Notes under the pieces: model-generated | The model's database searches: none | The model's input: the letters and a program-made list of their open reading frames with translations, nothing else | Told to the model about the DNA's origin: nothing | Assembly: GCA_021798985.1 (NCBI GenBank) | Contig: JAJZBI010000006.1 | Coordinates: forward strand, 1-64,000 | Length of the DNA: 64,000 nt | DNA from: Actinomycetes bacterium | GTDB lineage: Bacteria; Actinomycetota; Acidimicrobiia; Acidimicrobiales; Bog-793 | Direction of reading: 5' to 3' | Part shown: piece by piece, positions 36,044 through 56,600 of the stretch | Layout of the letters: the number at the start of each line of letters is the position of its first letter | Numbering within the stretch: the stretch's first letter is position 1 | Translations under genes and position numbers: made by a program

Positions 36044-36949
36044 ATGAAGGCGCCACAGGGCACGGTCGCCGACCGACTGGCGGGCGCGCCGATCTCCTGG
36101 GGGGTGTGCGAGGTCCCCGGCTGGGGGGCGATGCTGCCGGCCGACCGTGTGCTATCGGAGATGGCCAGCCTCGGCCTGAAGGCGAGCGAGCTCGGTGCCC
36201 TCGGCTATCTCGGTGACGAGCCGGCGGCCATCCGCGCGCTGCTCGAGCGCCACGGGCTTGGCGCGGTCGGGGGCTTTGTCCCGCTCGTCATTCACGATCG
36301 GGCCTTGCGGGAAGCGCTGCGCCGTGACGCCGAGCGGGCGGCCAGCCTGCTCGCAGGTTCGGGGGGCACCTACTTCGTGACCGCGGCGGTGCTCGACCAG
36401 GACTGGTCTGAGCCCGGCGAGCTGTCGACCCAGGAGTGGGACGCGGCAGCCGAAGGCCTCGAGATCGTCGAGGAGATCTGCGCCGGCCACGGCCTCACCC
36501 AGGTGCTGCACCCCCACGTGGGCACGATCGTCGAGCTCGCCTCGCACTTCGAGGAGGTGTTGGAGCGTTCGCCGGTGGCCTGGTGCCTCGATACGGGCCA
36601 CCTCGCGATCGGCGGCGCCGATCCGGTGGCCTTCGCCATGACGCACGCCGACCGGGTCGGCCTCGTGCACGTGAAGGATGTGGCCCTCGAGCATGCCGAG
36701 GCGGTGCGCAGCCACAAGACCTCGCTCCTCGATGCGACCAAGGCCGGCATGTTCCGCTCGCTCGGACGGGGCGACGTCGATGTTGCCGGGGTCGTGCGAG
36801 TCCTCGAGCAGCGCGGCTATCAGGGGTGGTACGTGCTCGAGCAGGATACGACGATCGACCCGAGCGAGGCCGAGCGGGTCGACCCGAAGGCCGACGTCCA
36901 GGTGAGCGTGGACTACCTGTTGGCGGCGAGCGGCGGCTCGAGCCGATGA
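36044..36949 (+). CDS. iolE: Myo-inosose-2 dehydratase-like sugar isomerase (IolE)
   Basis: A 301-residue AP-endonuclease-2-fold enzyme. The opening GAPISWGVCEVPGWG is the characteristic IolE start. Metal ligands are recognisable: Glu in LKASELGALGYLG, His in VLHPHVGTIVE (near 165), Asp/His in CLDTGHLAIGGADP (near 188), His in LVHVKDV and Glu in YVLEQDT near the end. It dehydrates 2-keto-myo-inositol in the second step of the pathway. Its ATG lacks a strong ribosome site. Its stop overlaps the start of the next gene (ATGA at 36946), the usual sign of coupling. A second, more distant homolog is at 62289. Confidence 0.85.
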   Translation: MKAPQGTVADRLAGAPISWGVCEVPGWGAMLPADRVLSEMASLGLKASELGALGYLGDEPAAIRALLERHGLGAVGGFVPLVIHDRALREALRRDAERAASLLAGSGGTYFVTAAVLDQDWSEPGELSTQEWDAAAEGLEIVEEICAGHGLTQVLHPHVGTIVELASHFEEVLERSPVAWCLDTGHLAIGGADPVAFAMTHADRVGLVHVKDVALEHAEAVRSHKTSLLDATKAGMFRSLGRGDVDVAGVVRVLEQRGYQGWYVLEQDTTIDPSEAERVDPKADVQVSVDYLLAASGGSSR

Positions 36950-37962
36950 GCGCGCCCCTGGCTGTCGGAGTGCTCGGCGCCGGCCGCATCGGCGCCATGC
37001 ACGCCCAGCTGCTGTCCGGCCAAGTCGCCGGGGCACGGCTGGCGGGCGTCGCCGATGCCTTCGCCGAGGTCGCCCAGCGCGCCGCGGCGCCGCTCGGCGT
37101 GCCGGCGAGCTCACCCGAGGCGCTGATCGCCGACCCGGCGATCGACGCGGTCGCCATCTGCAGCCCGACCGACACCCACGTCGACTACATCGTCGCGGCC
37201 GCGGCGGCCGGCAAGGCGATTTTCTGCGAGAAGCCGGTCTCGCTCGACCTCGCCCAGGTGGATCGGGCGCTCGAGGCGGCGCGCGCGCACTCGAGCTTCT
37301 TGATGGTCGGCTTCAACCGCCGCTTTGACCCCGCGCACCGCCACGTCCGCGATGCCGTGGCGAGCGGCGCCACCGGGGAACCGCATCTCGTGCGGATCAC
37401 GAGCCGGGACCCCGGGCCGCCGCCGATCGCGTATGTGAAGAGCTCCGGCGGCTTGTTCTTGGACATGACCATCCACGATTTCGACATGGCCCGCTACGTC
37501 GCCGGTGCCGAGGTCGTCGAGGTCTTCGCCAAGGGCGGCGTGCGCATCACGCCGGAGATCGCGGCCCTCGGGGACATCGACACCGCGGTGGTGACCCTCG
37601 AGCACGCGAATGGCTGTCTGACGGTGATCGACAACTCCCGCCGGGCGAGCTATGGCTATGACCAGCGCGTCGAGGTGCTTGGCGCGCTCGGGCTGTCGGC
37701 CTCGACGAACCCGCTCGATCACAGCGCCATCAGCGCGGACGGCACGGGCTTTCGGTCCGCGGCGCTGCCGAATTTCTTCATCGAGCGCTACCGCGTCTCC
37801 TACCTCCACCAGTGGCAGGCTTTCGTCGAAGCCCTCTCGACGGGGACGCCGCCGCCGACCTCTGGCGAGGACGGCCGGGCCGCGCTCGTGCTCGGCCTGT
37901 GCGCCAAGGCGTCACTCGAGCGCCAGGCGCCCGTCGCAGTGGGAAAGCTCGCCGGCGCCTAG
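36946..37962 (+). CDS. iolG: Inositol 2-dehydrogenase (IolG), Gfo/Idh/MocA family
   Basis: A 338-residue NAD-dependent dehydrogenase. The Rossmann domain has GVLGAGRIGAMHA (residues 8-20), CSPTDTHVDY, and FCEKPVSLD with the substrate Lys near 97. The catalytic region is SSGGLFLDMTIHDFDMARYV (Asp/His near 172-178), the IolG hallmark, and VMVGFNRRFDP-like FLMVGFNRRFD precedes it. It oxidises myo-inositol to scyllo-inosose in the first step. Its ATG overlaps iolE by four bases. The longer frame opened at 36436 is an artefact of that overlap. It is the last plus-strand iol gene before the lower-GC island. Confidence 0.9.
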   Translation: MSAPLAVGVLGAGRIGAMHAQLLSGQVAGARLAGVADAFAEVAQRAAAPLGVPASSPEALIADPAIDAVAICSPTDTHVDYIVAAAAAGKAIFCEKPVSLDLAQVDRALEAARAHSSFLMVGFNRRFDPAHRHVRDAVASGATGEPHLVRITSRDPGPPPIAYVKSSGGLFLDMTIHDFDMARYVAGAEVVEVFAKGGVRITPEIAALGDIDTAVVTLEHANGCLTVIDNSRRASYGYDQRVEVLGALGLSASTNPLDHSAISADGTGFRSAALPNFFIERYRVSYLHQWQAFVEALSTGTPPPTSGEDGRAALVLGLCAKASLERQAPVAVGKLAGA

Positions 37963-38612
37963 CACAGCGGCTGCCCGCGCGAACCAACCCATCAACGCCG
38001 CGCAAAGGGGAACCTTCAGCGCCCCCATTGCTCGCGGACACGCGGGCGCCTCGACACGCGAGATCACGTGGCGGCCGGTCGTGGCCGCGCAGTTCGCGGT
38101 GCCTGTCGCTCCGTTGCTTGCCCCGATCGTTCTTCGAGTACCAGGCAGGTAGCGGTCGGCTCCTGCCCTAGTTGACGAGCGCCGTTACCGCGTCTCGACG
38201 CGCCCGGTCGACGTTCGCGAGCGAGGTGTCGGAGCATGCGCGACGCTCGGTGGTGGCCCGTGTCGGGCGATATCGCCCTGGGTCGTTTGCTGATGGGCCG
38301 GGGTTCGGTGATTCACTGTCGGCCCGGATCCCGTGGACGGCTGAGCGGATGCGACGACGCGACCGGGCGCAGGTGCGGTTGGCTGCCGGCCGGGAGCTGC
38401 CCCGAGGTGACCCGGGCCGTCATGGCCGAACGTTGTAGCAACCGACGAGACCAGCCCACCTTCCGTCGCGTACTGTTACCGTTCGTTCTGCAGGTGCCCT
38501 GCGCCTCGCCAACAGCTTCTCCCTCTGGGAGGGCTGTCCCCGCGGAGGCGCGGTGCTCGGCTCATGGAGGCGTGCGAATGATCGGGGCGAGGAGTAGCCA
38601 GGACTTCGCGCA
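37963..38612. other. Intergenic region at the left edge of the island
   Basis: These 650 bases separate iolG from the lower-GC island. Weak Arg-rich ORFs occur (for example 38236-38616), with no ribosome site, motif or codon pattern of a gene. The G+C content begins to fall around 38450. I see no direct repeat, tRNA or integrase marking an insertion point. Confidence 0.45.
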
Positions 38613-40019
38613 ATGAGAGACGACCGTCGTTCGTGGCGTCCTACGGCCGTTGGCGTACTGGCGTGCGTCGTTGCGCCAGCATTCGGCGCTGTGCATGGCT
38701 CCTATGACCCGGTGATGCAAGTCAGCGCAGGGGCCTCCCGCTCCCTGACGGCGCCGTTTGAAGGAACCAACCTTGACTATTCCGGCGTAGCAGAACCGTA
38801 CGGCGAGGCGTCAGTGATGAACGCAGTCACCTCGTTAGCACCTGGAACGATCCGGTACCCCGGTGGGGCCGTCTCGAACTACTGGGATTGGCAGACCGGG
38901 AGTGTCAATCAGCCACCATCGACGACCGAAACCGCATCGGGAACGATCAAGACTCAACCGGGCCGATACCGAACCTATGGTTTCACGTTGTCCACTCTCA
39001 AGAACATCACCAGGGCGACCGGCGCTGTCCCGATCTTCGATCTCAATGTGATGACGTCCACATTGCACGACCAGATCCAGATGCTGAAGACCGCGGCGCA
39101 GATGGGGATTCCTATTCGATATGTCGAGCTCGGTAATGAGCTCTACCTGTCCAAATCCAACTACCTCCATGCCTTTCCAACCGCCACGGCGTATGCGGAC
39201 CTGGTGGCGTCATGGGCACCGGCGATACGCGCCGCGTTCCCGAACGTGCAGATCGCTGCGGTGGCAAGCGTGTCAACTACGACGCTTCGTGAACAGCATT
39301 GGAACTCCACATTGCTCAGCGTTGCCGGGAGAGACGTCAACGCAGTGACATTGCATGACTATCCTCTGACCAGTGCCCCAGGGAACGCGTCGTCTTCGCC
39401 GGCAACGCTACTGGCGGGAGCAAGTATCGAGTGGCAACCCGTTGAAAGAACCATCAATGCGTTGCCCTCACACCTTTCGGTTTGGTTGACCGAGTACAAC
39501 CTTGGGCTCGGCGCTCTCGCTCAGGGTTCACCTGCGCTAGGAACTACGTGGGAGCACGGCTTGTACATTGCCGGGCTCGACATGCAGGAGTTGGCATCGC
39601 CACGAGTCGTCCTCACGGATTACTGGGATCTGTTTGGCCACTCCGTCAGCGCACAATTCGCAGCGACAACGCCACCCATTGCCACACCTACCGGCCGAGT
39701 GAGCCAACTGATCAATCAAGCGATGCAGGGCGCGGAGAAAATCACGCTCCTTCGCATTGCGAACGACCCGGCGTTGGATGGATCCGTGAAGTCCGTGAGC
39801 GGAGTCAAGGTGACCGTCGCTTCTGGGGCCGACCGACTCATCCTCGTCAACCTTGGTTCGAAATCTGTGACGCTTGCCACAGGCAATGTGATCTCGCCGG
39901 ATGCATCTGTGCGGCAGTTGAGTGGTGCGCCATCGAGGCAAACCGTCGATTTACGCTCATTGCATTTGGGACGTGACTTGATCTTGCCATCATATTCGGT
40001 CACCGTCGTCACCAAGTAG
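38613..40019 (+). CDS. Secreted clan GH-A glycoside hydrolase (GH79/GH51-like)
   Basis: A 468-residue exported glycosidase. Residues 1-28 look like a signal peptide. TIRYPGGAVSNYWDWQTG near residue 92 is the strand found in GH79, GH39 and GH51 relatives. The acid/base Glu is probably in RYVELGNELY (near 170), and the nucleophile Glu in VWLTEYNLG (near 290). A C-terminal beta-sandwich (VTVASGADRLILVNLGSKSVTLATG) follows. The family cannot be fixed by eye; targets might be uronic-acid or arabinose polymers. ATG 38613 has no clear ribosome site. It opens the lower-GC island; codon use is less GC3-rich than in neighbouring genes, and the sulfatase downstream suggests a sulfated glycan. Confidence 0.75.
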   Translation: MRDDRRSWRPTAVGVLACVVAPAFGAVHGSYDPVMQVSAGASRSLTAPFEGTNLDYSGVAEPYGEASVMNAVTSLAPGTIRYPGGAVSNYWDWQTGSVNQPPSTTETASGTIKTQPGRYRTYGFTLSTLKNITRATGAVPIFDLNVMTSTLHDQIQMLKTAAQMGIPIRYVELGNELYLSKSNYLHAFPTATAYADLVASWAPAIRAAFPNVQIAAVASVSTTTLREQHWNSTLLSVAGRDVNAVTLHDYPLTSAPGNASSSPATLLAGASIEWQPVERTINALPSHLSVWLTEYNLGLGALAQGSPALGTTWEHGLYIAGLDMQELASPRVVLTDYWDLFGHSVSAQFAATTPPIATPTGRVSQLINQAMQGAEKITLLRIANDPALDGSVKSVSGVKVTVASGADRLILVNLGSKSVTLATGNVISPDASVRQLSGAPSRQTVDLRSLHLGRDLILPSYSVTVVTK

Positions 40020-40429
40020 GCCTGGATACCCCGTACCGACGCGCTCAACGGGGGGGCAGCGGATTGACTTGAATGGGTTGTGTTGCACTGCCCAACTTCT
40101 CGTCGCTGTTCGCGGCCTTGTCCCCGGCGCGCACGCGGTGCACATTTATGAGGTGGAAGTTCTAAATGCCCGACCGCATCGCCGCGTCAGAGCGGAACGA
40201 TCCATGTGGCGGCGGCGCGGTTGCATCCACGAAGTCGTCGTCGGCAGCGCGACTCACCAGTCCTGGCCCTATTGCCGCCGAGCAAGCGGTCGCTGGAGCT
40301 TAGCGATGTCGCTGCACGCCACCTTGCGCCGATCCAGGGAAGGTGGCCCCGTTTACCTCGTGCCGCTGTTGCGGATCTGCTCGTGTCGGGTGTCATGCGC
40401 GCCGCGCGACGCTCGTCGAAGAGAGATCC

Positions 40430-40615
40430 GTGGCGATCGGGCGAGGCCCGCTCGAGGGCGTGGCGGGCTGGACGGAAGGTCGTTTCCATTCGGGCGCGCC
40501 AGCGTCGAGGTGCCCGGGCCGCCCTATGCGATCTCCTGACGGGGCGAGGTGCGGGCAAGCGATGGGGCTGGGTATTCGGATTGCGAGCGGACCGAGCCCG
40601 TACATGGGCCGCTGC
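40430..40615 (+). pseudogene. Decayed 5' copy of the beta-lactamase-family gene at 47030
   Basis: The bases from about 40420 to 40615 align with 47020-47190, the first part of the intact serine hydrolase gene, including the GTG start and the GAGATCC before it. The copy reads VAIGRGPLEGVAGWTEGRF against MPVTQGLIEDVADWASTWL. One base is then lost, and a matching nucleotide stretch continues (GTGCCCGGGC, TATGCGATC, GGCGAGGTGC) out of frame to about 40615. Only the first 60 codons are present, so it is a truncated duplicate. The rest of 40020-40896 holds no gene; a GC-rich stem-loop lies at 40639-40661. Confidence 0.65.
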
Positions 40616-40862
40616 GCGGCCCGTGCTCTGAACCCATAGGCTCCCCGCTGAGCGCGGAGCCCCAGTTGAGCGGAGCGCGCAGCGTAGTCGCGTCCGGGCG
40701 AAGCCTTCCAGCGGCCGCGAAATTGGTCCCGGCGGTCCGTCGGCATTCTCCGGCGATACCCGAGCGGTGAATCCTGGAGCGGTGCCATCCAGGGAGCGGC
40801 CCAGCTGACGGCAGTCATGCTCAGGTTAGCGCCCCTGCTCAAAGGCATATCGCACAAGATGC

Positions 40863-40915
40863 TTGACAATGGCGACCGCCCGTCGCGTACCATTAGGTGG
40901 TGGATCGTTTAACCA
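40863..40915 (+). promoter_or_regulatory. Leaderless-type promoter and operator of the LacI gene
   Basis: TTGACA at 40863-40868 and TACCAT at 40888-40893 stand 19 bases apart, and the GTG start codon is at 40897, only a few bases after the -10. The transcript would then begin at or very near the start codon. GTGG-ATCGTTTAA-CCAC at about 40900-40916 is an inverted repeat containing TTAAACG on the other strand, a half-site typical of LacI proteins, so autorepression is plausible. Confidence 0.45.
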
Positions 40916-41961
40916 CTTCGACCACAGGGAGACGGCCGACTCTGCGCGATGTCGCCTTGTTGGCGCACGTGTCGCCGGCCTTGGTCTCTTACGTCTTGAA
41001 CGGTCGCGCCGATCGAAAGAGCCCCGCGAGCCCAGAGGTCGAAAGGCGAGTGCGCGCCGCGGCTGATGAACTCGGTTACAGTCCAGACCTCAACGCGCGC
41101 AGCCTCCGCCTTCAGCGCACCGATCGCATCTGTCTGCTTGTTGGCCGACCCGGCAATCCGTATGCGGACCTGCTCCTCGAAGGCCTTCAGTGCGAGGCCT
41201 CCGAGCGAGGATATGCGACTGTGAGCGTGCCGATCGGACCGGACGGCGACACGCGCCGCCCGATTGAGCTGTTGCGCCGCGGCCTTGCAGACGCCGCCAT
41301 CGTCGGGTTCTTCCCGCGCGTGCATCCTCCCGCGCCACGCGATCTTGCTGAACTTGTCGAGCGCGGTACTCCAGTCATCGTCCTTAGCGACGAATTCAAG
41401 CCGGAAGGATTTGACGTTGTGCGCGGCGACGAGGCATCGGTGTTTGAGCACGCGGTGACCAGCATCATTGATTCGGGACGAAGGCATATCGCCTACCTGG
41501 CGCACGCAGATGACACGCATGGGAAGGGGTCACCGCGTTATCGCGGCTATCTTGCGGCGTTGAAGAGGCAAAAGATTACCTTCGACCCAGCGCTCGTCAT
41601 CTTGGGTGCCGCCGATGACCGGGTCGCCGCGTATCGCGCCACCTGCGAGCTGCTCCGACGCGACGAAACACTCGACACGATTGTGTCGGCGTCTGACCGC
41701 GGAGCCATTAGTGCGATTTGGGCACTCCGGGACGCCGGCGTGGCGGTACCGGACACCGTTGCGGTCATGGGCTTCGGGGACCTGCCCGAAGGCGCGGTAA
41801 CTCGGCCCGCGTTGTCAACAATCGGGCAACGCAGTGATCGGATCCATGAGGTCGCGAAACTGCTCTTCGCCAGGCTTGGGGGCGACCTGTCACCCGCTCG
41901 GACGCTGACGATCCCATGGCAGATCCACTGGCGAGAATCCGCCGTACCTGGGCGGAATTGA
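40897..41961 (+). CDS. LacI-family transcriptional regulator
   Basis: A 354-residue repressor. The N-terminal helix-turn-helix reads TLRDVALLAHVSPALVSYVLNG (residues 15-36), followed by the hinge ELGYSPDLNARSLRLQRT. The periplasmic-binding-like core starts with RICLLVGRPGNPYADLLLEGLQCEASERGY and includes DSGRRHIAYLAH, GYLAALKRQ and VMGFGDLPEGAVTRPALSTIGQ. It should bind a sugar and control the island genes. GTG codons at 40897 and 40900 can start it; no Shine-Dalgarno is visible, consistent with a leaderless transcript. The sulfatase begins 58 bases after its stop. Confidence 0.9.
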   Translation: MVDRLTTSTTGRRPTLRDVALLAHVSPALVSYVLNGRADRKSPASPEVERRVRAAADELGYSPDLNARSLRLQRTDRICLLVGRPGNPYADLLLEGLQCEASERGYATVSVPIGPDGDTRRPIELLRRGLADAAIVGFFPRVHPPAPRDLAELVERGTPVIVLSDEFKPEGFDVVRGDEASVFEHAVTSIIDSGRRHIAYLAHADDTHGKGSPRYRGYLAALKRQKITFDPALVILGAADDRVAAYRATCELLRRDETLDTIVSASDRGAISAIWALRDAGVAVPDTVAVMGFGDLPEGAVTRPALSTIGQRSDRIHEVAKLLFARLGGDLSPARTLTIPWQIHWRESAVPGRN

Positions 41962-42019
41962 AAGAGAGACCCGCCGCGAGCCAAACGCCGCGTCCGCATC
42001 TCGGGGAGCGAAAAAGGAT

Positions 42020-43360
42020 ATGTCGACCGCAGCGAACAAACAGAACTTCATCGTCTTCTTCACCGATCAGCAGCGATGGGACACGGTGGGTACCTACGGC
42101 AACCCACTCGGTCTGACTCCGAATCTCGATGAGATCGCTCGACGGGGAACCATGTTCCAGCGGGCGTTCACGCCCCAACCACTCTGCGCCCCTGCGCGCT
42201 CGGTGATGCAGACCGGGCGCTACCCGACCGCGACGGGATGTTTTCGCAACGGGATTCCACTCCCGAAGCACGCACCCACGATTGGGCGCACGTTCTCTGA
42301 TGCCGGTTATGCGACTGCATATATCGGCAAGTGGCATCTCGCTTCCGGGGATCCTGTGCCGAGGGATGAACAGGCCGGATACCAGTACTGGCTCGCCGCC
42401 AGCGAACTCGAGTGGACATCGCACCCTTACGACACGAACGTCTTCGACAGCGACGGCAATCGTAGTTGGCTTCCTGGTTATCGGACCGACGCGCTCGTTG
42501 ATGCCGCCATTCGCTACATCGACCGAGCCGTCCGCGTAGAGGACGAGCCCTTCTTCCTCTTCCTCTCCCTCCTCGAGCCACATCACCAAAATGACGTGGA
42601 CGCCTATCTGTGCCCTCCCGGGTACGAGAGGTACGCGGGCGACTGGATGCCTACTGATCTTGCCGCGTTGCAGGGAACAACCCCCCTGCACCTTCCGGGC
42701 TATCTCGGGATGGTCAAGCGCATCGATGAAGGGGTGGGGCGCCTGGTCGATGCGCTTCGGAGCCTCAACGTGCTCGACAGCACCAACCTCCTCTATACGA
42801 CAGACCATGGGTGCCATTTCCGTACGAGAAACGCCGAGTACAAGCGCTCATGTCACGAAGCATCGATCCGCATCCCAATGCTCGCACAAGGGCCGTACTT
42901 TGATGCGCGAGGTGTCGTGCAGCAGATGGTCTCGCTTCTCGACGTGCCGACGATGCTCTGCGACGCTGCTGGGCTGCAACTCGAGGGGGCTGTTGGTGGC
43001 GTGTTGGGTTCGCGGTCGCACCACAATCAGCAAAACCATGTCGTGCGTCAATCAGATGCAATCTCCGACGACGATGGGCTGTTGATACAACTGAGCGAAG
43101 CTGGCATTGGCAGAGCGCTGCGGACGAACCGGTGGAAATATGGCGTGCTGGCGGGGACAGATGACGGCGAGGCCACCGGCTGCGCGGGGAACTACGTAGA
43201 GAGTCATCTCTACGATCTCGATGCTGACCCCGCGGAGCTCACCAATCTCGTCGATGACTCGCGATACGAGGCGGTGCGACAGCAGTTGCGCAGCGAGCTC
43301 ATGGCAAGGATGCGTCGGAATGGTGAGCCGGAATGTCAAATCGTGTCGGAATACTTGTGA
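42020..43360 (+). CDS. Sulfatase, formylglycine type (CxPxR)
   Basis: A 446-residue alkaline-phosphatase-fold sulfatase. Metal ligands appear early (IVFFTDQQRWDTVG) and late (YTTDHGCHFRTRN near 260). The active-site Cys, to be converted to formylglycine, is in QPLCAPARSVMQTGRYP near residue 55, matching CxPxR. AYIGKWHLAS near 95 holds the conserved Lys/His. The Cys form needs a separate generating enzyme, not seen in this window. No signal peptide is visible, so it is probably cytoplasmic and acts on imported sulfated sugars. The ATG at 42020 follows AAAAGGA. It lies between the LacI gene and the importer. Confidence 0.88.
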   Translation: MSTAANKQNFIVFFTDQQRWDTVGTYGNPLGLTPNLDEIARRGTMFQRAFTPQPLCAPARSVMQTGRYPTATGCFRNGIPLPKHAPTIGRTFSDAGYATAYIGKWHLASGDPVPRDEQAGYQYWLAASELEWTSHPYDTNVFDSDGNRSWLPGYRTDALVDAAIRYIDRAVRVEDEPFFLFLSLLEPHHQNDVDAYLCPPGYERYAGDWMPTDLAALQGTTPLHLPGYLGMVKRIDEGVGRLVDALRSLNVLDSTNLLYTTDHGCHFRTRNAEYKRSCHEASIRIPMLAQGPYFDARGVVQQMVSLLDVPTMLCDAAGLQLEGAVGGVLGSRSHHNQQNHVVRQSDAISDDDGLLIQLSEAGIGRALRTNRWKYGVLAGTDDGEATGCAGNYVESHLYDLDADPAELTNLVDDSRYEAVRQQLRSELMARMRRNGEPECQIVSEYL

Positions 43361-43441
43361 GGGGAGGGAAGAGCGTCACGTTAGTAGCAGGGGTGCCCGT
43401 TAAATCCGGGTTCAGGCACAGCATTGAAGAGGGGGAAGACT

Positions 43442-44803
43442 ATGAGCAAGCTCAAGACGCTTGGAGGTGCTCAGCGGTTGCGTCACGGTACGACTCGCGG
43501 GCTGGCAGTTGCGATGGCAGCCGCGGCGCTGTCCGCGGGCGTAGTGATCACGGGCGCGCAAACCGCGAACGCGTCCCGTCGACTATCGGCAAATATTCAG
43601 ATGTGGATAGCCGGTAACAACACAACGAAGCCCATCTATGAAGCTGAGGCTGCGGCGTTCAGCAAGTCGCATCCGGGCATCACCGTCACGATTACCGACC
43701 TGCCTGGTCCGGCGTACACGCAAAAGCTGGACACCGCGTTGGCTGCCAATCAACTTCCGGCGATCTTTCAGGAGTACTCTCCCGGTCCGGCTCTACAGCA
43801 ACTCGTGCGATCCAAGCAGGTTGTAGACCTTACGCCCTACGTAAAAAGGCATTCTGTTATTACGCGCCGAATCCTGCAATCGGCCCTTGCGCAGGGTCAG
43901 ATCCACGGTCAGCAGTACGGGATTCCATACAACATCTTTCAAGAGACGGTCATCCTGTACAACAAGGCTGACTTCCGGAAGGCCGACATCAGCGGACCGC
44001 CACAGACGTGGTCACAGCTGAATACCGATATCGGCAAGCTGAAGGCTGCGGGGATCATTCCGGTCTCGATCTCTGGAACCGAGTCTGACAACTGGTACGA
44101 GCTCTGGCTCGAGAACTACGAAGTGCGTCATTCGGGGTTGGGCGTGACGAACGCGTTGGAGAAGGGCAAGAGCGCTGCGTTGGGGACGGCACCAGTGGTC
44201 GAGGCGGCGCGTGCCATGCAACAGCTCGTGAAGGCCAAAGCGTTTGAGCCGGGCTATTCAACGATTTCAGAGGCAAACGATGTTCCCTATGCGTTGCTCG
44301 GTACCGGTAAGGCGGGAATGCTCCTGTACGGAGCGTTCACGCCAAACTTTGTCAACGAGGCGGTGCCGAACTTTTCGGCCAGTGGGAATATGGGATGGTT
44401 CTCCTTCCCGAGCGTGTCTGGTGGGAAGGACAACGCCGTCATCGATTTGGCATCGCAGCCACAGCTTGTCGTGAACGCGCATATGAGCAAGGAGGACATC
44501 AAGGCAGCTGAGGAGTTCTTGGCGAGCTTTGTGTACTCCCCGGGTCAGGTAGCCGCGCTTTCGAAGACTGGGAATGTGGGTCCATTCGCGAACTCGCTGT
44601 ACCTTGTAAAGCAGCGTGCGCCAAAGGATCTCAAGTCCTACATGCTGTTCGAGCTGAAGGAAGCCCAGCAGCGCTCTTCGTTCATTAGCTGGAGCCAGTT
44701 GCTGCCGCCCGCGCAGACGACCAATTGGAACAACCTGCTCGAAGAGTTGTTCTCATTGGCAATCACACCGTCGCAGTTTGCCGCTCAAGCGGCCAAGCTG
44801 TGA
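43442..44803 (+). CDS. Sugar ABC importer solute-binding protein, family 1
   Basis: A 453-residue secreted receptor of the MalE-like type. The signal peptide spans about residues 1-45 (RGLAVAMAAAALSAGVVITGAQTANA). The mature part has QMWIAGNNTTKPIYEAEAAAFSKSHPGI and AYTQKLDTALAANQLPAIFQ, then YGIPYNIFQETVILYNKADF, all standard for family 1. No lipobox Cys is clear. ATG 43442 follows GAAGAGGGGGAAG; the frame opened by a TTG at 43424 is not needed. Two permeases follow. Placed after the sulfatase, its ligand is probably a sulfated or uronic oligosaccharide. Confidence 0.9.
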   Translation: MSKLKTLGGAQRLRHGTTRGLAVAMAAAALSAGVVITGAQTANASRRLSANIQMWIAGNNTTKPIYEAEAAAFSKSHPGITVTITDLPGPAYTQKLDTALAANQLPAIFQEYSPGPALQQLVRSKQVVDLTPYVKRHSVITRRILQSALAQGQIHGQQYGIPYNIFQETVILYNKADFRKADISGPPQTWSQLNTDIGKLKAAGIIPVSISGTESDNWYELWLENYEVRHSGLGVTNALEKGKSAALGTAPVVEAARAMQQLVKAKAFEPGYSTISEANDVPYALLGTGKAGMLLYGAFTPNFVNEAVPNFSASGNMGWFSFPSVSGGKDNAVIDLASQPQLVVNAHMSKEDIKAAEEFLASFVYSPGQVAALSKTGNVGPFANSLYLVKQRAPKDLKSYMLFELKEAQQRSSFISWSQLLPPAQTTNWNNLLEELFSLAITPSQFAAQAAKL

Positions 44804-44853
44804 GTCGCACCTGAAGGAACGGTACTGACGACTCGCGGCGGGGAGGGCACGTG

Positions 44854-45777
44854 ATGAGGGTCGAGTCACCGGTAGTGTCGGTGCGCGGAGCCGTGCGCAG
44901 CATGTACTCGCGTACTGATGGACGCGGAAAGCGTGAAGTTGGGCCTGGTCTCTTGGTCCTCCCCGCATTCGCGATCTACGGCGTCTTCGTCATCGGTGCA
45001 CTTCTCGCCGCGGTCGTCATCTCCTTTTTAAACTGGCCAATTGGTGGATCGGTCAGCTTTGCCGGACTGAAGAACTGGAGCACGTTCTTATCCGGTGGTG
45101 GTGTGAAGGCGTTGGGCGTCACGGCCGAGGTTATTGGGATCAGTTTGGTGGTTCAGATTCCGTTGAGTGTGGCCCTCGGAATATTCGCGGCGGGACGACA
45201 GCGCTATCGGGCGGTGCTGTCGTGGTTGTACGTGCTCCCCCTGCTGGTGTCTCCGACAGGGATTGCGATCACCTGGGCACGACTGTTCGATCCGACGTTC
45301 GGCGGCTTCACGTCTATCATTCAACAGACCTGGCTTTCGAGTCGCGCTGCGGCGCCCGTGATCGTGACGCTGGCGTTCAGCTGGCGGATCGTTCCCTTCT
45401 ACGTGATCTTGATCCAGGCAGCGGTGAGGACGATTCCCCGGGAGCTGTTCGATGCGGCTGCGGTGGATGGAGCCTCGGGAGCGCGGCTGATCCGACACAT
45501 TTTGTTGCCGCAGTTGCGACACACCATTGTGGTTGTTGCGATTCTTGCGGTAACGGGTGCGCTGACCGCGTTTGACCTCTACTTCGTCATGACCGGTGGC
45601 GGGCCCGATGGTGCCACAACGACACTTGCGGTGGGGGTCTACCTTCAAGCCTTCTCGAATCAGGTGCTCGGTCCCGCTTCCGTCTACGCCGTGGTGGTGG
45701 CCGCAGCGGGACTGTTGACGGCAGGTCTCGTGTCGCGAGCAACGAAATTCGGTGAAATGCGCAGTCAAAGGCAGTAA
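44854..45777 (+). CDS. Sugar ABC importer permease, MalF/UgpA type
   Basis: A 307-residue membrane protein with six helices. The coupling-loop motif is RTIPRELFDAAAVDGASGARLIRHILLPQL (near residue 200), the EAA-loop consensus. A 30-residue cytoplasmic N-terminus precedes the first helix (LVLPAFAIYGVFVIGALLAAVV). ATG 44854 or the GTG just before it can start the gene; GGGGAGGG is upstream. The permease partner follows with 13 bases between. No ATPase gene accompanies the pair, so a shared MsiK-like ATPase (such as the PotA-type one at 58395, or one elsewhere) is expected. Confidence 0.9.
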   Translation: MRVESPVVSVRGAVRSMYSRTDGRGKREVGPGLLVLPAFAIYGVFVIGALLAAVVISFLNWPIGGSVSFAGLKNWSTFLSGGGVKALGVTAEVIGISLVVQIPLSVALGIFAAGRQRYRAVLSWLYVLPLLVSPTGIAITWARLFDPTFGGFTSIIQQTWLSSRAAAPVIVTLAFSWRIVPFYVILIQAAVRTIPRELFDAAAVDGASGARLIRHILLPQLRHTIVVVAILAVTGALTAFDLYFVMTGGGPDGATTTLAVGVYLQAFSNQVLGPASVYAVVVAAAGLLTAGLVSRATKFGEMRSQRQ

Positions 45778-45790
45778 GAAGGAGAGAACG

Positions 45791-46684
45791 ATGGCGTCGA
45801 TAGCCGTAGAAGAGCCATCGGCAGAGCCGGCATATTGCCGGAGGTCCCGACTGCAGGCATTGAAGATCAGCAGAGTCCTGTCTGGTGTGCTCGGCACCGC
45901 CTGGGCGGTGATCGCGGTTGCGCCGCTGTATTTCTTGGTGCTGGGGAGTCTGCGCGGCGAGGGCGCCTACCTGACGGCCAATCCGTGGTGGCCGAGCGGT
46001 GGGGTGACGCTTTCGAACTATCGGGTTGCCCTCAGTGGCGTGGGAACGGCTCTCTTGAACAGCGTGATCGTTACGGTGAGCGTGTGTGCACTCGTCATCG
46101 TGTTGAGCGTCCCAGCAGCGTACGCGATTGTCAGAGGCAGAGGAAGGGGCATCCGGCTTTGCTATGTGCTGTTCCTCGCCGGGCTGGCGATTCCGATCGA
46201 GGGGACGATCGTTTCAGTATTCATCATTGTGCTGCACCTGCACCTGTATAACTCCTTGGCGGGGATCATCGTGCCGACCGCAGCGTTCTCCATGGCGTTG
46301 GCGGTGCTCATTTTGGTTGCCTTCCTCAGAGATGTGCCGTCTGAGCTCTACGAGGCGATGGAGCTGGATGGAGCGGGGAGAATGCAGCTTCTGCGGTCGC
46401 TCGTGTTCCCGATGGCGCGGCCACCATTGCTTGGGATCGGTGTGTTTGTCGCGCTGTCGAGCTGGAACTCGTTGCTCTTGCCATTGGTGACCACAACGAG
46501 CAATGCGCAGGCGGTACTGCCGGTTGCGCTGTTGCGTTTGGAATCTTCGAATGGTGCGGACTACCCGGCGATTCTGGCATCGGTGGTGTGGTCCGCAATA
46601 CCGATCATCGTCCTCTATCTGGTGGGGCGTCGGCAGCTGATCGGTGGCCTGGTTATTGGGAGCTCAAGCAATCTTGGCCGATAG
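45791..46684 (+). CDS. Sugar ABC importer permease, MalG/UgpE type
   Basis: A 297-residue six-helix protein. The N-terminal helix (GTAWAVIAVAPLYFLVLGSL) and the family stretch NSVIVTVSVCALVIVLSVPAAYAIVRG lie before the coupling loop VPSELYEAMELDGAGRMQLLRSLVFPMARP (near residue 190). ATG 45791 is preferred to the ATG at 45752 because AAGAAGGAGAG lies before it and the overlap with the first permease is then avoided. It is the last gene of the island. The 345 bases after it (46685-47029) hold nothing I can assign, apart from sequence that leads into the beta-lactamase-family gene. Confidence 0.9.
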   Translation: MASIAVEEPSAEPAYCRRSRLQALKISRVLSGVLGTAWAVIAVAPLYFLVLGSLRGEGAYLTANPWWPSGGVTLSNYRVALSGVGTALLNSVIVTVSVCALVIVLSVPAAYAIVRGRGRGIRLCYVLFLAGLAIPIEGTIVSVFIIVLHLHLYNSLAGIIVPTAAFSMALAVLILVAFLRDVPSELYEAMELDGAGRMQLLRSLVFPMARPPLLGIGVFVALSSWNSLLLPLVTTTSNAQAVLPVALLRLESSNGADYPAILASVVWSAIPIIVLYLVGRRQLIGGLVIGSSSNLGR

Positions 46685-47029
46685 CGCCGGGAGGACGTTG
46701 AGGAGTCGGAGCTGGCAGTGAGTGTTGGTTGTGTGGAGCGCGGCGTCGTCGGGGACTCGAGCGACTTGTGCGCCTGAAGTCGCGAAGGCGAGTCGGTCGA
46801 CTTCTGCGCGTTGGCCGCGTTGGCGCTGTGTCCTGGTGGTGAGACAAGTAGCGGGACGCGGTCATGATGATGCACGGGAGGATCGTTCATGGCAACGTGG
46901 TCAACGAGGTGGGCACCGCGCGCCCGCGGCATTCTGGCGGGTGGGCCCGAGGGCTGCCGAGATATGTTGTTCTAGAGCGACGGCGCACGTTCCCGTTCGC
47001 CATTCGTCGCTGTCGTTAGGGAGATCCTC

Positions 47030-48469
47030 GTGCCGGTCACGCAAGGCCTGATCGAAGACGTCGCCGACTGGGCGAGCACGTGGCTGGCCTTCCGGCGTGC
47101 CAGCGTCGGGGTGCCCGGGCTGCAGTATGCGATCGCCTGGCGAGGCGAGGTGCTGGTGAGCGGTGGTGATGGGCTCTCGGACTGCCAGCGGGGCGTCCCG
47201 ATGAGCGATGCGCAGTTGTTCCGGATCGCCTCGCACTCAAAGACCCTCACGGCCACGCTGCTCATGCAGCTGAGCGACCGTGATCATCCGGCTCTTGGCC
47301 TGGACGATCGGGTGGGCGACCACCTCCCCGAGCTTTCTGGCCGGCCCGGGCTCGCTGGGATCGCGCAGTGCCGTATCGGCGAGCTCGCCCACCATGGCTC
47401 GGGGATCAGCCGGGACGGCATCGACGGGGACTACTGGCAGCTCGCGCGCCCCTTTCCCGACCGCGATGCGCTGCTGTCGCTGCTCGAGGTGAGCCCGTCT
47501 CCTTTCGGCCCGAGCGAGCGGTTCCACTACTCGAACCTCGCCTACTCCCTCCTCGGTCTGATCATCGAGCGCGTCAGCGGGGCGAGCTTCTCCGATCTCA
47601 TCGCCGAACGGATCGCTCGCCCGCTCGGGCTCGCCGACACGGCGGCTGACTACCTCGAAGCGCGCGCCGAGGAGTACGCGATCGGCTACAGCCACGCGCT
47701 CGGCGGCCTCGGGCGGCTTGCCATCGAGCACATCCCGACAAACGCCATGGCGCCGGCGACCGGGGTCACGAGCACGGCGAGGGATCTCGTCCGCTTCTTC
47801 TCCGCGCATTGCGAGGGCGACCACACGCTGCTCAGCGAGGCTGCGAAGCGGCGGATGCAGCACGAGCAGTGGCAGCCGCGAAGCGGCGAGGGCTATGCGC
47901 TCGGCCTGCAGACCCTAAAGGTCGGCGAGCGCCGCCTGATCGGCCACTCGGGCGGCTATCCCGGCCACATCACGCGGACCTGGTGCGACCCGAACGACCA
48001 GCTGGTGGTGTCGGTGCTGACGAACGCGACCGCCGCGCCGGCGAGCGCGTGGGCGACGGGGATCTTCCGCTTGATCGACAGCCTCGCCCAACGGCCTGGA
48101 CACGCGCTGAGCGAAGAGATCGAGCCGAGGTCCTTTGCGGGACGCTTCGCCGGGCTGTGGGGCGCCTTTGACATCGCGAGCTTCGATGGCCAGCTCTATG
48201 AGGTTGGCCTCGAGGGCGACGACCCGAGCGCGGCGCTGAGCGAGCTGGCGATCACCGGAGCCGACGCGGCGGTGCTCGCCAAGGCGCCCGACGGCTACGC
48301 GAGCGAGGGTGAGCCCTACCGCTTCGAGCGCGATCTCGACGGCAGGGTCCGCGCCGTGCGGGGCGAGTCGGGGATGCGGGCGGTCGCGCTCGAGGACTGG
48401 GCGGCACGCGTCGCCCAAGGCGATGCGATCGCCCGCCCCGATGCCGGGGCAGAGCGACCCGCGGACTGA
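47030..48469 (+). CDS. Beta-lactamase-family serine hydrolase (class C-like)
   Basis: A 479-residue penicillin-binding-protein-like hydrolase. The three active-site motifs are intact: SxxK in RIASHSKTLTA (near residue 70), Y-S-N in FHYSNLAYSLLG (near 167), and HSGG in LIGHSGGYPG (near 305). A C-terminal beta domain of about 130 residues follows. There is no signal peptide, which argues for a cytoplasmic esterase or peptidase rather than an antibiotic-resistance enzyme. The GTG start has AGGGAGATCC upstream. A decayed copy of its first 60 codons lies at 40430. It converges on the DUF47 gene. Confidence 0.88.
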   Translation: MPVTQGLIEDVADWASTWLAFRRASVGVPGLQYAIAWRGEVLVSGGDGLSDCQRGVPMSDAQLFRIASHSKTLTATLLMQLSDRDHPALGLDDRVGDHLPELSGRPGLAGIAQCRIGELAHHGSGISRDGIDGDYWQLARPFPDRDALLSLLEVSPSPFGPSERFHYSNLAYSLLGLIIERVSGASFSDLIAERIARPLGLADTAADYLEARAEEYAIGYSHALGGLGRLAIEHIPTNAMAPATGVTSTARDLVRFFSAHCEGDHTLLSEAAKRRMQHEQWQPRSGEGYALGLQTLKVGERRLIGHSGGYPGHITRTWCDPNDQLVVSVLTNATAAPASAWATGIFRLIDSLAQRPGHALSEEIEPRSFAGRFAGLWGAFDIASFDGQLYEVGLEGDDPSAALSELAITGADAAVLAKAPDGYASEGEPYRFERDLDGRVRAVRGESGMRAVALEDWAARVAQGDAIARPDAGAERPAD

Positions 48470-48584
48470 GGAGCGCGGAGGCGACCGGTGGTCGCAGCCC
48501 GTCCACGCCCACGCTGCGGCGAGGCGGTGGACGCTCGCGCCGTTGGCGCTCTCGCCATTTCTTGGGCGCGGTCAGGAGCGAGCG

Positions 48585-49283
48585 TCAGGGCTCAGACGGC
48601 AGCACGTAGCTGCCGTTGCGTTTGACGAGCGCGTCGGTGCACACGCCGACCGCCTCGCCGACGCGCAGTCCGATGACGTCGAGGCGGCGCAAGAGCTCGC
48701 GTTGCTTCAGCGTCTCCATGGTGAGCTCGCCGGCGAACAGTCCCGCCAGTTCGGCCTGGAAGTGGCGCCGGATGCCGTTGGCCCCGCGCTTTGCGGTGAG
48801 CAGGCTGGCGATCACGGTGTCGGGTTGCTCGATCAATGCTGCGATGGCGCCGCGCAGCTCGCCCAACCCGTCGGCAAGCGTGGCGAGCACGCCGGCGAGC
48901 CCGCTGGCGTCGCTCGGTGCGTACAGCGCCCACTCGCGCACGAAGTCCCGCGTGTTGTCGAGCACGTCGTCGATCGATCGCGAGAGCCGGAAGAGGTCCT
49001 CGCGATCAAGCGGGGTGACGATCGCCTCGGCGAGTGCGCCGACGAGCTCTTGGCGCAGCGCGTCGCCGCGGCGCTCGATGCCACGCATCGCCTCGTCGAT
49101 GTCTGGTGCGGCGACCTCGCCGCGCACCACCGCGGCGGCGAAGCGGGCGCCTTCCAGCGCACAGTCGAGGTGCGCCACCAAGATGTCGACGAGCACTGGG
49201 CCGCTGCGGCCGGCGACGTCCCTGGCAAAGCTCGACAGGCGCTCGGCGCGGTGGCGGAGCCGCCCGAGGGGGCTCATCGCCAT
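48585..49283 (-). CDS. DUF47/PhoU-like phosphate transport accessory protein
   Basis: A 232-residue all-helical protein of the DUF47 (TIGR00153) family, PhoU-like partners of PiT phosphate transporters. Typical blocks are HLDCALEGARFAAAVVRG, DEAMRGIERRGDALRQEL, PLDREDLFRLSRSIDDVLDNTRDF near residue 95, which in the family bears the metal-binding Asp/Glu, and RRHFQAELAGLFAGEL near the end. ATG 49283 (or 49277) is chosen; the frame opening at 49463 adds a long Arg-rich tail that belongs to the mmsA shadow. Such genes are normally next to the PiT gene, but here the iolB-iolD-mmsA operon lies between them. Confidence 0.85.
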   Translation of the reverse strand: MAMSPLGRLRHRAERLSSFARDVAGRSGPVLVDILVAHLDCALEGARFAAAVVRGEVAAPDIDEAMRGIERRGDALRQELVGALAEAIVTPLDREDLFRLSRSIDDVLDNTRDFVREWALYAPSDASGLAGVLATLADGLGELRGAIAALIEQPDTVIASLLTAKRGANGIRRHFQAELAGLFAGELTMETLKQRELLRRLDVIGLRVGEAVGVCTDALVKRNGSYVLPSEP

Positions 49284-49314
49284 CCGCCCGGATCGCACGG
49301 CGCGCCCGGCAGGC

Positions 49315-50808
49315 TCACTCGGCGGTCGGGAAGTGGTAGGACGCGCCGCCGTCGATCGGCTGGGGCCAGCGCTCGGTGACGACCTTCTGGCGCGTGTAGA
49401 AGCCGACGCCCTCCTCGCCGTGCACCCGGCGCTCGCCGAACAGCGAGTCCTTCCAGCCACCAAAGGAGTAGTAGGCCATCGGCACAGGGATCGGGACGTT
49501 GACGCCGATCATGCCGACCCGGACCTCGCGGTGGAAGCGCCGCGCCGCCTCGCCCGAGCTCGTGAAGATCGCCGTGCCGTTGCCATACGGGTTGGCGTTG
49601 ATGAGCGCGATCGCCTCATCGATGCTGTCGGCTCGCAGCACCGAGAGCACCGGGCCGAAGATCTCGTCTCGGTAAACCTCCATGTCGGGCGCGACCTGAT
49701 CGAGAATCGTCGGTCCGACGAAGAAACCGTCCTCGTGCCCGGGCACCACGAGGCCGCGGCCGTCGAGGGCGACCTTGGCGCCTGCTGGCTTGGCGCGCTC
49801 GATGTAGCCGACGATGCGGTCGCGGGCCTCCATGGTGATCACGGGCCCCATCTCGCTCGCCTGGTCGCGTCCCGGGCCGACGCGGATCGCGCGGGCCTGC
49901 TCGGCGACGGCGTCGACGAAGGCGTCGGCGACCGGACCGACGGCGATGGCCGCGGAGATCGCCATGCATCGTTCGCCGGCCGAGCCGAAGGCGGCGGCGC
50001 TCACGTGCATCGCCGCGTAATCCGTTGCGGCGTCTGGCAGGACGATGGCGTGGTTCTTCGCGCCGCCGAGCGCCTGGACGCGCTTTCCCGCCGCGCTCGC
50101 CCAGCCATAGACGGCGCGGGCGATCGGCGTCGAGCCGACGAAGGAGACCGCCGCGATCTTCTCGTGGCGACACAGCGCCTCGACGGCGACCTTGTCGCCG
50201 TGCAGGACGTTGAAGACGCCCTCGGGCAGTCCGGCCTTCTGCCAGAGCTCGGCCAGCAGCATCGACGGGCTCGGGTCGCGCTCGCTCGGCTTCAACACGA
50301 CGGTGTTCCCGCACGCGATGGCGATCGGGAACATCCACATCGGGACCATGACCGGGAAGTTGAAGGGGGTGATGCAGGCGACGACGCCGAGGGGCTGGCG
50401 GTAGGAGAAGACGTCCACGCCCGTCGAGACCTGGTCGGAGTACTGGCCCTTTAAGAGCTGGGGGATGCCGCAGGCGAACTCGAGGACCTCAAGGCCGCGC
50501 TGGACCTCCCCGCGGGCGTCCGAGAGCACCTTGCCGTGCTCGGCTGAGACGGCCGTGGCGAGCTCGTCCAGGTGCGCGTTGACGAGCTCCCGGAAGGAGA
50601 AGAGCACCTTGGTGCGGGTGCTGAGCGAGCTCTCCGACCAGCGCGCGAAGGCGTCGGCCGCGCAGTCAACGGCCGCGTCGACGTCGGGCTCCTCGGCGAG
50701 CAGGACCTCGGCCTGCTGGACACCGAGCGCGGGGTCGAACACCGGGGAGGTGCGCCGCGAGGAGGCCGCGGTGGCCTTGCCTCCGATGAAGTGCTCGATT
50801 CTGCGCAC
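49315..50808 (-). CDS. mmsA: Methylmalonate-semialdehyde dehydrogenase (CoA-acylating), inositol pathway
   Basis: A 497-residue aldehyde dehydrogenase, the IolA/MmsA type that turns malonate semialdehyde into acetyl-CoA. Landmarks are ITPFNFPVMVPMWMFPIA (near residue 150), LKPSERDPSPS with the NAD-binding Lys, FVGSTPIARAVY, the catalytic Cys in AFGSAGERCMA (near 285), and the closing EIFGPVLSVLRA and SSGEAARRFHREVRVGMIGVNVPIPVPMAYYSFGGWKDSLFG. The latter stretch is diagnostic of the MmsA group, which needs no Glu general base. It starts at GTG 50808 with GAAAGAAGAG upstream, 41 bases after iolD, and is the third gene of the minus-strand iol operon. Confidence 0.93.
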   Translation of the reverse strand: MRRIEHFIGGKATAASSRRTSPVFDPALGVQQAEVLLAEEPDVDAAVDCAADAFARWSESSLSTRTKVLFSFRELVNAHLDELATAVSAEHGKVLSDARGEVQRGLEVLEFACGIPQLLKGQYSDQVSTGVDVFSYRQPLGVVACITPFNFPVMVPMWMFPIAIACGNTVVLKPSERDPSPSMLLAELWQKAGLPEGVFNVLHGDKVAVEALCRHEKIAAVSFVGSTPIARAVYGWASAAGKRVQALGGAKNHAIVLPDAATDYAAMHVSAAAFGSAGERCMAISAAIAVGPVADAFVDAVAEQARAIRVGPGRDQASEMGPVITMEARDRIVGYIERAKPAGAKVALDGRGLVVPGHEDGFFVGPTILDQVAPDMEVYRDEIFGPVLSVLRADSIDEAIALINANPYGNGTAIFTSSGEAARRFHREVRVGMIGVNVPIPVPMAYYSFGGWKDSLFGERRVHGEEGVGFYTRQKVVTERWPQPIDGGASYHFPTAE

Positions 50809-50849
50809 GTCGCTCTTCTTTCCCCCGCAGCGGCGGGCATGGCAATGGG

Positions 50850-52724
50850 TCAGCAGTACGGGCGCTGGCGCGCCTTTGCCTCCTCATACGCGGCGCGCGC
50901 GGCGCGCGTCTCGGGGAGGGTCGAGACCTCGGCGACCGCCACGTCCCACCACGCCTCGCTCGAGGGCGCGCCCACCAACGGGTCGGTCTCGATGCGCACG
51001 AGGGCAGGGCCGGGATGGGCCCTGGCGTCGGCGAGCGCCTTTTGGAACGCGGCGAGATCCCGGCACTCGAAAGTGGCGACGCCGAGGCTCGCCGCGTTCT
51101 TGGCGAGGTCGATCGGCAAGAGGTCACCATCCAGCCGCCCCGTCTTCGGGTTGCGGTAGCGGTACGCGGTGCCAAAGCGCTGCGAGCCCAGGCCCTCGGA
51201 GAGCGCGCCGATCGAGGCGAAGCCGTGGTTGTCGACGAGGACGATCACGAGGTCGATCTGCTCCTGCACGGCGGTGACGAGCTCTTGGGCCATCATCAGA
51301 TACGAGCCGTCGCCGACGAGCACGTAGACGTCGCGCTCTTGGGCGGCGAGCTTGACGCCGATGCCGCCGGCGATCTCATAGCCCATGCAGGAGTAGCCGT
51401 ACTCGACGTGGTAGCCCTTGGGGTCTCGCGTGCGCCACAGCTTGTGCAGGTCGCCGGGCATCGACCCCGCCGCGCAGACCACGACGTCGCGCGGCGCCAT
51501 CGCTTGGTTTAGGGCGCCGAGGACCTCGCTTTGGGCGGGGAGCGGGCCGTGGCCGAGGTGGTAGGCGGCCTCGACGGTTGCGTCCCATGCGCCGGCGAGG
51601 GCGCTCGCCCGCGCCGTGTGCGCCGCCGGTGCCTGGTGGTCACCGAGCGCCTCATCGAGCGCCGAGAGGATCTCGCGGGCGTCGCCGACCACCATCTCGC
51701 CGGCGTGCTTGGCGGCGTCGAAGCGGGCGATGTTGACGTTGACGAAGCGGACGGAGGGGTCCAAGAAGGCGGTGCGCGAGGCGGTGGTGAAGTCGCTCCA
51801 GCGGGTCCCGACGCCGATGACGACGTCCGCCTCGGCGGCGAGCGCGTTGGCGGCGGTCGTGCCGGTGGCCCCGATGGCGCCCACCGCGCACGGGTGGTCG
51901 TAGGCGAGCGCGCCCTTTCCGGCCTGGGTCTCGGCGACCGGGATGCCATGCCGGCTGGCGAAGCTCTGCAACGCCTCGGTGGCCTCGGCGTAGATCACCC
52001 CTCCGCCCGCCACGATCAAGGGGCGCTTGGCGCCGGCGATGAGCGCGGCGGCGCGCGCGAGCGCGCGATCGTCCGGGCGCGGCCGGTCGAGGTGCCAGAC
52101 GCGGCGCGCGAAGAGCTCGTCGGGCCACTCGGCCGCCTCGGCCTGGACGTCCTGGCACAGCGCCAGGGTGACGGCCCCGGTTTCGGCCTGGTCGGTGAGG
52201 GCGCGCATCGCCCCGAGCAGCGCCTCGGGGAGCTGCTCGGGGCGCGTCACGCGGTCGAAGTAGCGAGAAACGGGCCGGAAGACGTCATTGACCGAGGCGT
52301 CGCGGGCGGCGGGAACCTCGAGCTGCTGGAGGACGGGGTCGGCGACCCGGGTGGCAAAGACGTCGCCGGGCAGCAAGAGGACCGGCAAGCGGTTCACGGT
52401 GGCGAGGGCCGCCCCGGTCACCATGTTCGTCGCGCCCGGGCCGATCGAAGACGTGCAGGCGAGCGTGGAGCAGCGGTTCGACATCCTGGCGTAGGCCGCC
52501 GCGGCGTGCACCATGGCCTGCTCGTTGCGAGCCTGGTAGTAAGGGAGCTCGCCCGGCCGCTCGAGCTCAGCCTCGAGCAGCGCCTCGCCCATGCCCGCGA
52601 CGTTGCCGTGGCCGAAGATCCCAAAGCACCCAGCGACAAGTCGCGCCTCGCGCCCGTCCCGCTCGCTGTACTGCTGGGCGAGGAAGCGGACGATCGCCTG
52701 GGCGACGGTCAAGCGGACGCCCAT
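50850..52724 (-). CDS. iolD: 3D-(3,5/4)-trihydroxycyclohexane-1,2-dione hydrolase
   Basis: A 624-residue thiamin-diphosphate enzyme that opens the inositol ring. The N-terminal part has a Glu-containing FGIFGHGNVAGMGEALLE (near 35-52), the central domain SIGPGATNMVTGAALATVNRLPVLLLPGD, and the C-terminal ThDP motif VLVGDGSYLMMAQELVTAVQEQ...DNHGFASIG (near residue 480). ATG 52724 is correct: it overlaps the iolB stop (TGATG). The frame opening at 52784 would run into iolB. It is the second gene of the iolB-iolD-mmsA operon. Confidence 0.93.
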   Translation of the reverse strand: MGVRLTVAQAIVRFLAQQYSERDGREARLVAGCFGIFGHGNVAGMGEALLEAELERPGELPYYQARNEQAMVHAAAAYARMSNRCSTLACTSSIGPGATNMVTGAALATVNRLPVLLLPGDVFATRVADPVLQQLEVPAARDASVNDVFRPVSRYFDRVTRPEQLPEALLGAMRALTDQAETGAVTLALCQDVQAEAAEWPDELFARRVWHLDRPRPDDRALARAAALIAGAKRPLIVAGGGVIYAEATEALQSFASRHGIPVAETQAGKGALAYDHPCAVGAIGATGTTAANALAAEADVVIGVGTRWSDFTTASRTAFLDPSVRFVNVNIARFDAAKHAGEMVVGDAREILSALDEALGDHQAPAAHTARASALAGAWDATVEAAYHLGHGPLPAQSEVLGALNQAMAPRDVVVCAAGSMPGDLHKLWRTRDPKGYHVEYGYSCMGYEIAGGIGVKLAAQERDVYVLVGDGSYLMMAQELVTAVQEQIDLVIVLVDNHGFASIGALSEGLGSQRFGTAYRYRNPKTGRLDGDLLPIDLAKNAASLGVATFECRDLAAFQKALADARAHPGPALVRIETDPLVGAPSSEAWWDVAVAEVSTLPETRAARAAYEEAKARQRPYC

Positions 52725-53593: not shown

Positions 53594-53732
53594 CGCTCTC
53601 GCCTTTCTGGCGCTTCCACGGCTCGTGCCGTCGAAGCGCCCACCCGGCGCGACCAATTCGCGCGCCGCGATGCTAAGCCGCCTCCCGCTCGGCACCAGGG
53701 CCGCGGCGAGTGTCGCGCCGGCTGGGGGAGTA

Positions 53733-54731: not shown

Positions 54732-55331
54732 GCGTCCCCCCTTTCCGCTGTGCTGTAGAGGATATCAAGATGTCTTGACAAAGCAGCCCGTTGGAGGAGG
54801 CTTCTGGCGCGAGGGGAGCGTTCACCCGGCGTTCACCGCGCCGCGCTGAGCACGCGCCCCGGTGTCTACCTGGGCCGCCTACGGTGTCGCCGGCGGCGCG
54901 TCCGAGCACGGTCGGCCGCTCTGTCACTCGCCCTGCCGGGCGTTCCCGCCGCGGCATTTGTAAAGGCATCTTGACCAATGAGATCGGCCATCGCTAGGCT
55001 TAAACTCGGTAGCCGCCGAGGCAGGTGGGTTTGTGGTGCCCCCGGGCAGGTCGGTTGCAGCGCTGCGGACTTGGGGGGCGATGGTGGTGGCTCGGGGGGA
55101 CATCGGCGCCTCGTGCGAAACGGCGACGGCTCGTCACGCGATGGCGGGGCCGCGTCGGGTGCGATGCGTCCAAAGAGCGCGCCACTTCGATCTCGGTCAG
55201 GTGCTGGAGCAGCTTGAGCCACGCGTGACGGCGGGACTGAGGCACCACACATCTACATCTCCGTGGATGGCCACTGCGTTACTCGTTGCAGCTACCGTGC
55301 GGGCTGCACCGCATCAGAGAGGGGAGAACCA
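54732..55331. other. Promoter/leader region of the phosphodiester importer operon
   Basis: These 600 bases hold no supportable gene. Two plus-strand promoter-like sequences occur: TTGACA at 54775 and, better, TTGACC at 54971-54976 with TAGGCT 18 bases later (54995-55000). A short Gly/Arg-rich ORF (54978-55217) begins inside the promoter and is unlikely to be real. The long leader (over 300 bases) leaves room for RNA-level control, but I see no known riboswitch. Confidence 0.45.
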
Positions 55332-56474: not shown

Positions 56475-56495
56475 TCCAAACAGGGAGATGATGGC

Positions 56496-56532: not shown

Positions 56533-56600
56533 GATCTCATGGCAGATCGTTGGCGTTGGGTTGCGGCCTGTTGACACCACATGAACGGGGAAGTTGATCG

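Follow-up and report, generated by a model that had tools for sequence, protein, structure and literature searches.

The start of a serine-hydrolase gene at 47030–48469 recurs upstream as a truncated and decayed copy, and this repeat does not mark an island boundary but is a scar left by multi-step assembly inside a 10.6-kb block of extra DNA. We give a probability of roughly 0.45 to the reading that a foreign operon, encoding a LacI regulator, a sulfatase and a sugar importer, was joined in at the gene start during stepwise build-up of the block, and that the truncated upstream copy then decayed. Coordinates refer to the window, i.e. the whole 64,000-nucleotide stretch of DNA that was analysed.

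36946–37962, + strand: iolG, inositol 2-dehydrogenase, left chromosomal flank (TIGR04380, 404.9 bits, cut-off 355)
About 37963–48585, no strand: 10.6-kb block between iolG and the DUF47 gene, absent in three relatives (homology breaks)
38613–40019, + strand: putative glycosidase-like gene, left of the decayed copy (GC3 0.67; no Pfam match)
40400–40617, + strand: decayed partial copy of the serine-hydrolase gene start (blastn, local alignment, resampling)
40897–41961, + strand: LacI-family regulator (Pfam; foreign composition)
42020–43360, + strand: sulfatase (PF00884, E 4.5e-49; foreign composition)
43424–44803, + strand: solute-binding protein of an ABC sugar importer (PF01547, E 1.3e-29; foreign composition)
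44851–45777, + strand: ABC importer permease 1 (PF00528; foreign composition)
45752–46684, + strand: ABC importer permease 2 (PF00528; foreign composition)
46998–47213, + strand: counterpart at the intact gene, with about 30 upstream bases and about 61 codons (blastn, local alignment, resampling)
47030–48469, + strand: intact serine hydrolase, Beta-lactamase family (PF00144, E 1.2e-54; GC3 0.88, host-like)
48585–49277, − strand: DUF47/PhoU_div-like gene, right chromosomal flank (PF01865; longer frame 48585–49463)

The block sits in a cluster for myo-inositol catabolism (36044–37962 and 48585–53695), where the left flank carries an iolE-like gene and iolG and the right one the DUF47 gene, an iolA-like gene of the MMSDH family, iolD and iolB. 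The DUF47 gene scores under the cut-off of TIGR00153. The glycosidase-like protein shows a weak NCBIfam match to ArfA (arabinosylfuranosidase; 25.3 bits vs a cut-off of 625) and no solved-structure match at E ≤ 0.1, and its RYPGG, ELGNE and TEYN stretches resemble clan-A glycoside hydrolases. The C-A-P-A-R stretch of the sulfatase fits the Cys-type formylglycine signature CxPxR.

When the window was compared with itself by blastn, positions 40420–40590 matched 47018–47191 on the same strand, with 75% identity over 174 columns and an E value of 4e-24, and the only other off-diagonal pairs at E ≤ 1e-5 were two short self-palindromes. Palindromes of about 40 bases lie at 56495–56533 and 15723–15762, and are 97 and 93% self-complementary respectively. 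By local alignment the repeat reaches 40400–40617 against 46998–47213, about 215 bases, so that the decayed copy runs from about 30 bases 5' of the GTG codon to approximately codon 61, and 138 of its 183 coding columns are identical (45 mismatches). The initial annotation had placed a decayed and frameshifted recurrence of the first 60 codons at 40430–40615, which is borne out, its coordinates being off by no more than a few bases over the coding part and the frameshift being a single base near codon 16. Chance similarity of high-GC sequence might be considered with a copy of 72% GC, and we regard its probability as negligible: the alignment score of 179 stands against a mean of 28.8 (sd 5.6) in 60 first-order Markov resamples, giving a z-score of 26.6, and the pair ranks first among 218-base tiles over 80 kb of the contig with 110 bits, the next unrelated pair having 61.7 bits. 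These values, together with the E value, refute it.

A search of the whole genome at the DNA level found only the copy and the gene at E < 0.01 (40 of 91 first-look candidates scored), with the next-best match to the gene start at E 0.018, and a third copy was not found in 34 other genomes of the family either (at most 14 first-look candidates scored in each), which makes the duplication unique to this genome among those searched. Distant members of the serine-hydrolase family are common, with matches at E ≤ 0.001 in 40 of 59 other relatives, the own genome excluded. A widespread multi-copy family is nevertheless inapplicable as an explanation of the repeat, because the protein matches its own genome at only two places with E ≤ 0.001, namely its gene and the fragment. 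Two further candidates were rejected. A match of G024 to 40277–40340 (78% over 64 bases) was treated as chance, and the G024 reading frame overlapping it had no match in the island better than E 0.48; a match of about 31 bases and 94% in G008, within the copy, came upon realignment to only 32 columns and a 19-base opposite-strand match. On the contig just past the window, 68.3–69.1 kb and 78.0–78.9 kb (L053) are direct repeats with longer stretches of 68–78% identity, and these are probably paralogous genes.

Extension of the repeat, and likeness between segments of the island, were screened in 36 segment pairs on both strands (72 comparisons). Besides the repeat itself three pairs, each on the same strand, came out above z 3: 40020–40399 against the gene start (z 3.3, 0 of 60 resamples as high), 40618–40896 against 46685–46997 (z 3.1, 1 of 60) and the gene start against the remainder of its own gene (z 3.5, 0 of 60), and with 72 comparisons made they were not built on. 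Opposite-strand similarity between spacers did not exceed z 3 in this screen. A looser one compared four spacers with eight loci on both strands, using six plain shuffles per comparison; 12 of 64 combinations were flagged, all at 1.35 times the best shuffle or less.

Besides the one-base frameshift, an in-frame TGA near codon 37 disables the copy, which has further small gaps toward its 3' end. Its mismatches to the gene are spread over codon positions 1, 2 and 3 as 13, 18 and 14 (61 sites each), while the gene and its nearest homologue, in G013 with 53% protein identity, differ in the same stretch at 17 of 61, 16 of 60 and 26 of 59 positions. Taking the G013 homologue as outgroup, we could assign 44 of the 45 mismatches: 35 are informative, with 29 changes on the copy's side against 6 on the gene's, and the remaining 9 sites match neither. 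Identity is 75% between copy and gene, 67% between gene and G013, and 61% between copy and G013. The even differences over codon positions and the 29 to 6 changes argue that the copy is drifting freely, and since the outgroup agrees with the copy at 6 sites the intact gene has also changed slightly. Similarity to an intact gene, a disabled frame and a lost codon-position bias with the changes mostly on the copy are what is found in a pseudogene fragment, and judged by these features the copy, a partial duplicate from the serine-hydrolase gene start, is dead and drifts without constraint. Third positions of the two copies differ at 14 of 61 sites and fourfold sites between the window and the congener G002 at 285 of 666, summed over four flanking genes; the duplication is therefore probably younger than the split from G002, with small counts and two divergence measures that are not identical.

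The pattern of changes suggests that the copy has been unconstrained for most of its life, whatever its origin, and it would look the same had the serine-hydrolase gene been duplicated whole as a tandem paralog, with one copy later cut to its first 215 bases by a foreign insertion or a later deletion. Whole-gene tandem duplication is common in bacteria. Codons 62–479 have, on the other hand, left no trace 5' of the gene, the full protein having no further match there in the island better than E 2.4, and at E ≤ 0.001 the genome holds no place for this protein apart from the fragment and the intact gene. In our judgement such a tandem paralog, mostly deleted since, is somewhat unlikely; it is the main rival and explains the fragment nearly as well.

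The extent of the extra DNA was defined with a 17-kb stretch searched in eight genomes, the window's own included. An empty site in relatives, proposed as a check in the initial annotation, is present in three of them, where iolG adjoins the DUF47 gene. In G002, of the same genus, homology ends at 37928 and restarts at 48601 with 125 bases between; in G001, also of the same genus, the break is at 37898/48618 with 290 bases between; and in G005, of the same family and another genus, at 37935/48618 with 126 bases between. The two genes at the break are conserved in all three, while the right flank varies beyond the DUF47 gene, as in G001 and G005 iolD follows it without a full iolA between. In G003, G006, G013 and G019 this search did not find the two flanks joined, nor did an intermediate genome turn up. 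Three genomes without the block against one with it favour, on this comparison of sequences, a gain in this lineage rather than loss elsewhere.

The missing block holds the decayed copy and the intact gene, and also the glycosidase-like gene outside the bracket. The regulator, sulfatase and importer genes thus do lie between two copies in the same direction as first described, and the idea that the copies bracket the island falls away, with both contained in the missing DNA and both lacking in the relatives with the empty site. Nor does the repeat mark the insertion point against the old chromosome; the missing block ends elsewhere and foreign genes lie on both sides of the copy. A site-specific mobile island ending at the two copies, as att-type sites or a transposon target duplication, would account for copies in the same orientation around a block of foreign composition, and we find it very improbable: foreign DNA runs past the bracket, the repeats do not coincide with the ends of the missing DNA, there is no tRNA in the window to serve as target, and Pfam detected no integrase or transposase among the seven proteins of the island and no recombinase in ten open spacer frames (two sub-cut-off matches, E 0.065 and 0.14). 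Transposon target duplications are moreover usually far shorter than 215 bases. Nothing usable came from comparing positions 40020–40900 with plasmids, 37963–40900 with phages or 37800–48800 with Rfam.

The operon shows GC3 values of 0.69–0.73 and five flanking genes 0.89–0.93, and genes of foreign composition stand on both sides of the decayed copy. Third-order Markov models, trained on mostly coding DNA with 300-base controls and thus only rough in placing short spacers, put the copy on the host side (+0.038) and the spacers 40020–40399 and 40618–40896 (−0.021 and −0.022) within the 5–95% range of foreign DNA (−0.090 to −0.008). Between the host and foreign ranges lies the spacer that precedes the intact gene (−0.001), and just inside the host range (5% point 0.002) the leftmost one, 37963–38612 (+0.0075). 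Another stretch of lower GC (0.64–0.67) in the window is 55000–58500. As it stands, the decayed copy looks like a host-like chip amid foreign-like surroundings, which disfavours a single insertion at the gene start and is the chief weak point of the favoured reading. The same surroundings could have arisen if the glycosidase-like gene and the operon, alike in composition, came as one foreign block and the 215-base host-like piece was copied in between later, with the foreign-looking spacers on either side of it. Such a course seems unlikely to us, as no sign of a paste-in mechanism was seen, and the one retrieved locus with a similar cassette, Actinocatenispora comari L069, does not support an original adjacency of that gene and the operon: within 5.5 kb it matches LacI, the two permeases and the sulfatase, and it has no match at E ≤ 1e-8 to the glycosidase-like protein, the solute-binding protein or the serine hydrolase. 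Unlike here, the sulfatase is last in L069.

In named genomes the sulfatase has matches at 21 loci with 25–55% identity, 15 of them titled Caldilineaceae and one being L069, and among the candidates scored in the other 346 genomes of the order there is no counterpart at E ≤ 1e-100. The serine hydrolase is found at E ≤ 1e-50 in at least 4 of these 346 genomes and at E ≤ 1e-60 in at least 4 of the other 395 genomes sampled from the phylum. In these order and phylum searches, that with the sulfatase included, at most four first-look candidates were scored per genome and the counts are lower bounds. A search of named genomes with it gave no relative. It matches 1510 plasmid records, all below 60% identity, and the best of these are Deinococcus serine hydrolases near 40%. 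Around its homologues in G013, G052 and G019 eight frames were scanned, some of which may be shadow frames; six had no Pfam match, one a weak sub-cut-off peptidase match, and one is an MFS transporter.

Entry of the operon at the gene start would fit these observations as follows. The 10.6-kb insert would have been built up step by step between iolG and the DUF47 gene, in two or more acquisitions, because a single insertion would leave old chromosome 5' of the left copy. In one of them illegitimate or homology-assisted recombination would have brought the foreign operon in at the serine-hydrolase start, with a truncated copy left by the junction upstream of the operon and a complete copy downstream; the truncated one, having no function, would have decayed. 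The duplicate itself probably arose in this lineage, once it had parted from the closest congener found. As suggested at the outset, recombination at the gene start is plausible for one assembly step, and a single insertion between the copies does not suit the layout. The edges of the repeat are blurred by the 25% divergence between the copies.

Homology-facilitated illegitimate recombination (HFIR) of foreign DNA is described for bacteria (PMC3240628, PMC5361080): on one side the foreign DNA joins at a homologous anchor, and its other side joins illegitimately. An HFIR-like process is proposed in PMC5361080 for remnants of displaced genes retained at Vibrio cholerae T6SS loci. In comparison, the remnant here is no more than consistent with such a process, and no donor molecule, anchor or junction was seen for it. 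It is also like the merodiploidy arising in transformation (PMC3784515) in that resident sequence is duplicated with one copy free to change, but unlike the tandem duplications given there (about 100 to 900 kb) it measures 215 bases, with the copies 6.4 kb apart and unrelated DNA between them. A narrow literature search matched no paper, and is a weak guide to what is in print.

The repeat is ordinary genome evolution. It is quite doubtful, though conceivable, that the start of the serine-hydrolase gene acts as a repeated anchor capturing foreign genes for sugar use beside the inositol cluster; if true, gene-start scars would record successive captures. Repeats around foreign-looking genes need not be island boundaries, since the empty site here gives other ends. 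The case is also a small and clean example of a decayed partial duplicate that is of use in dating and ordering the steps by which an acquired metabolic block was put together.
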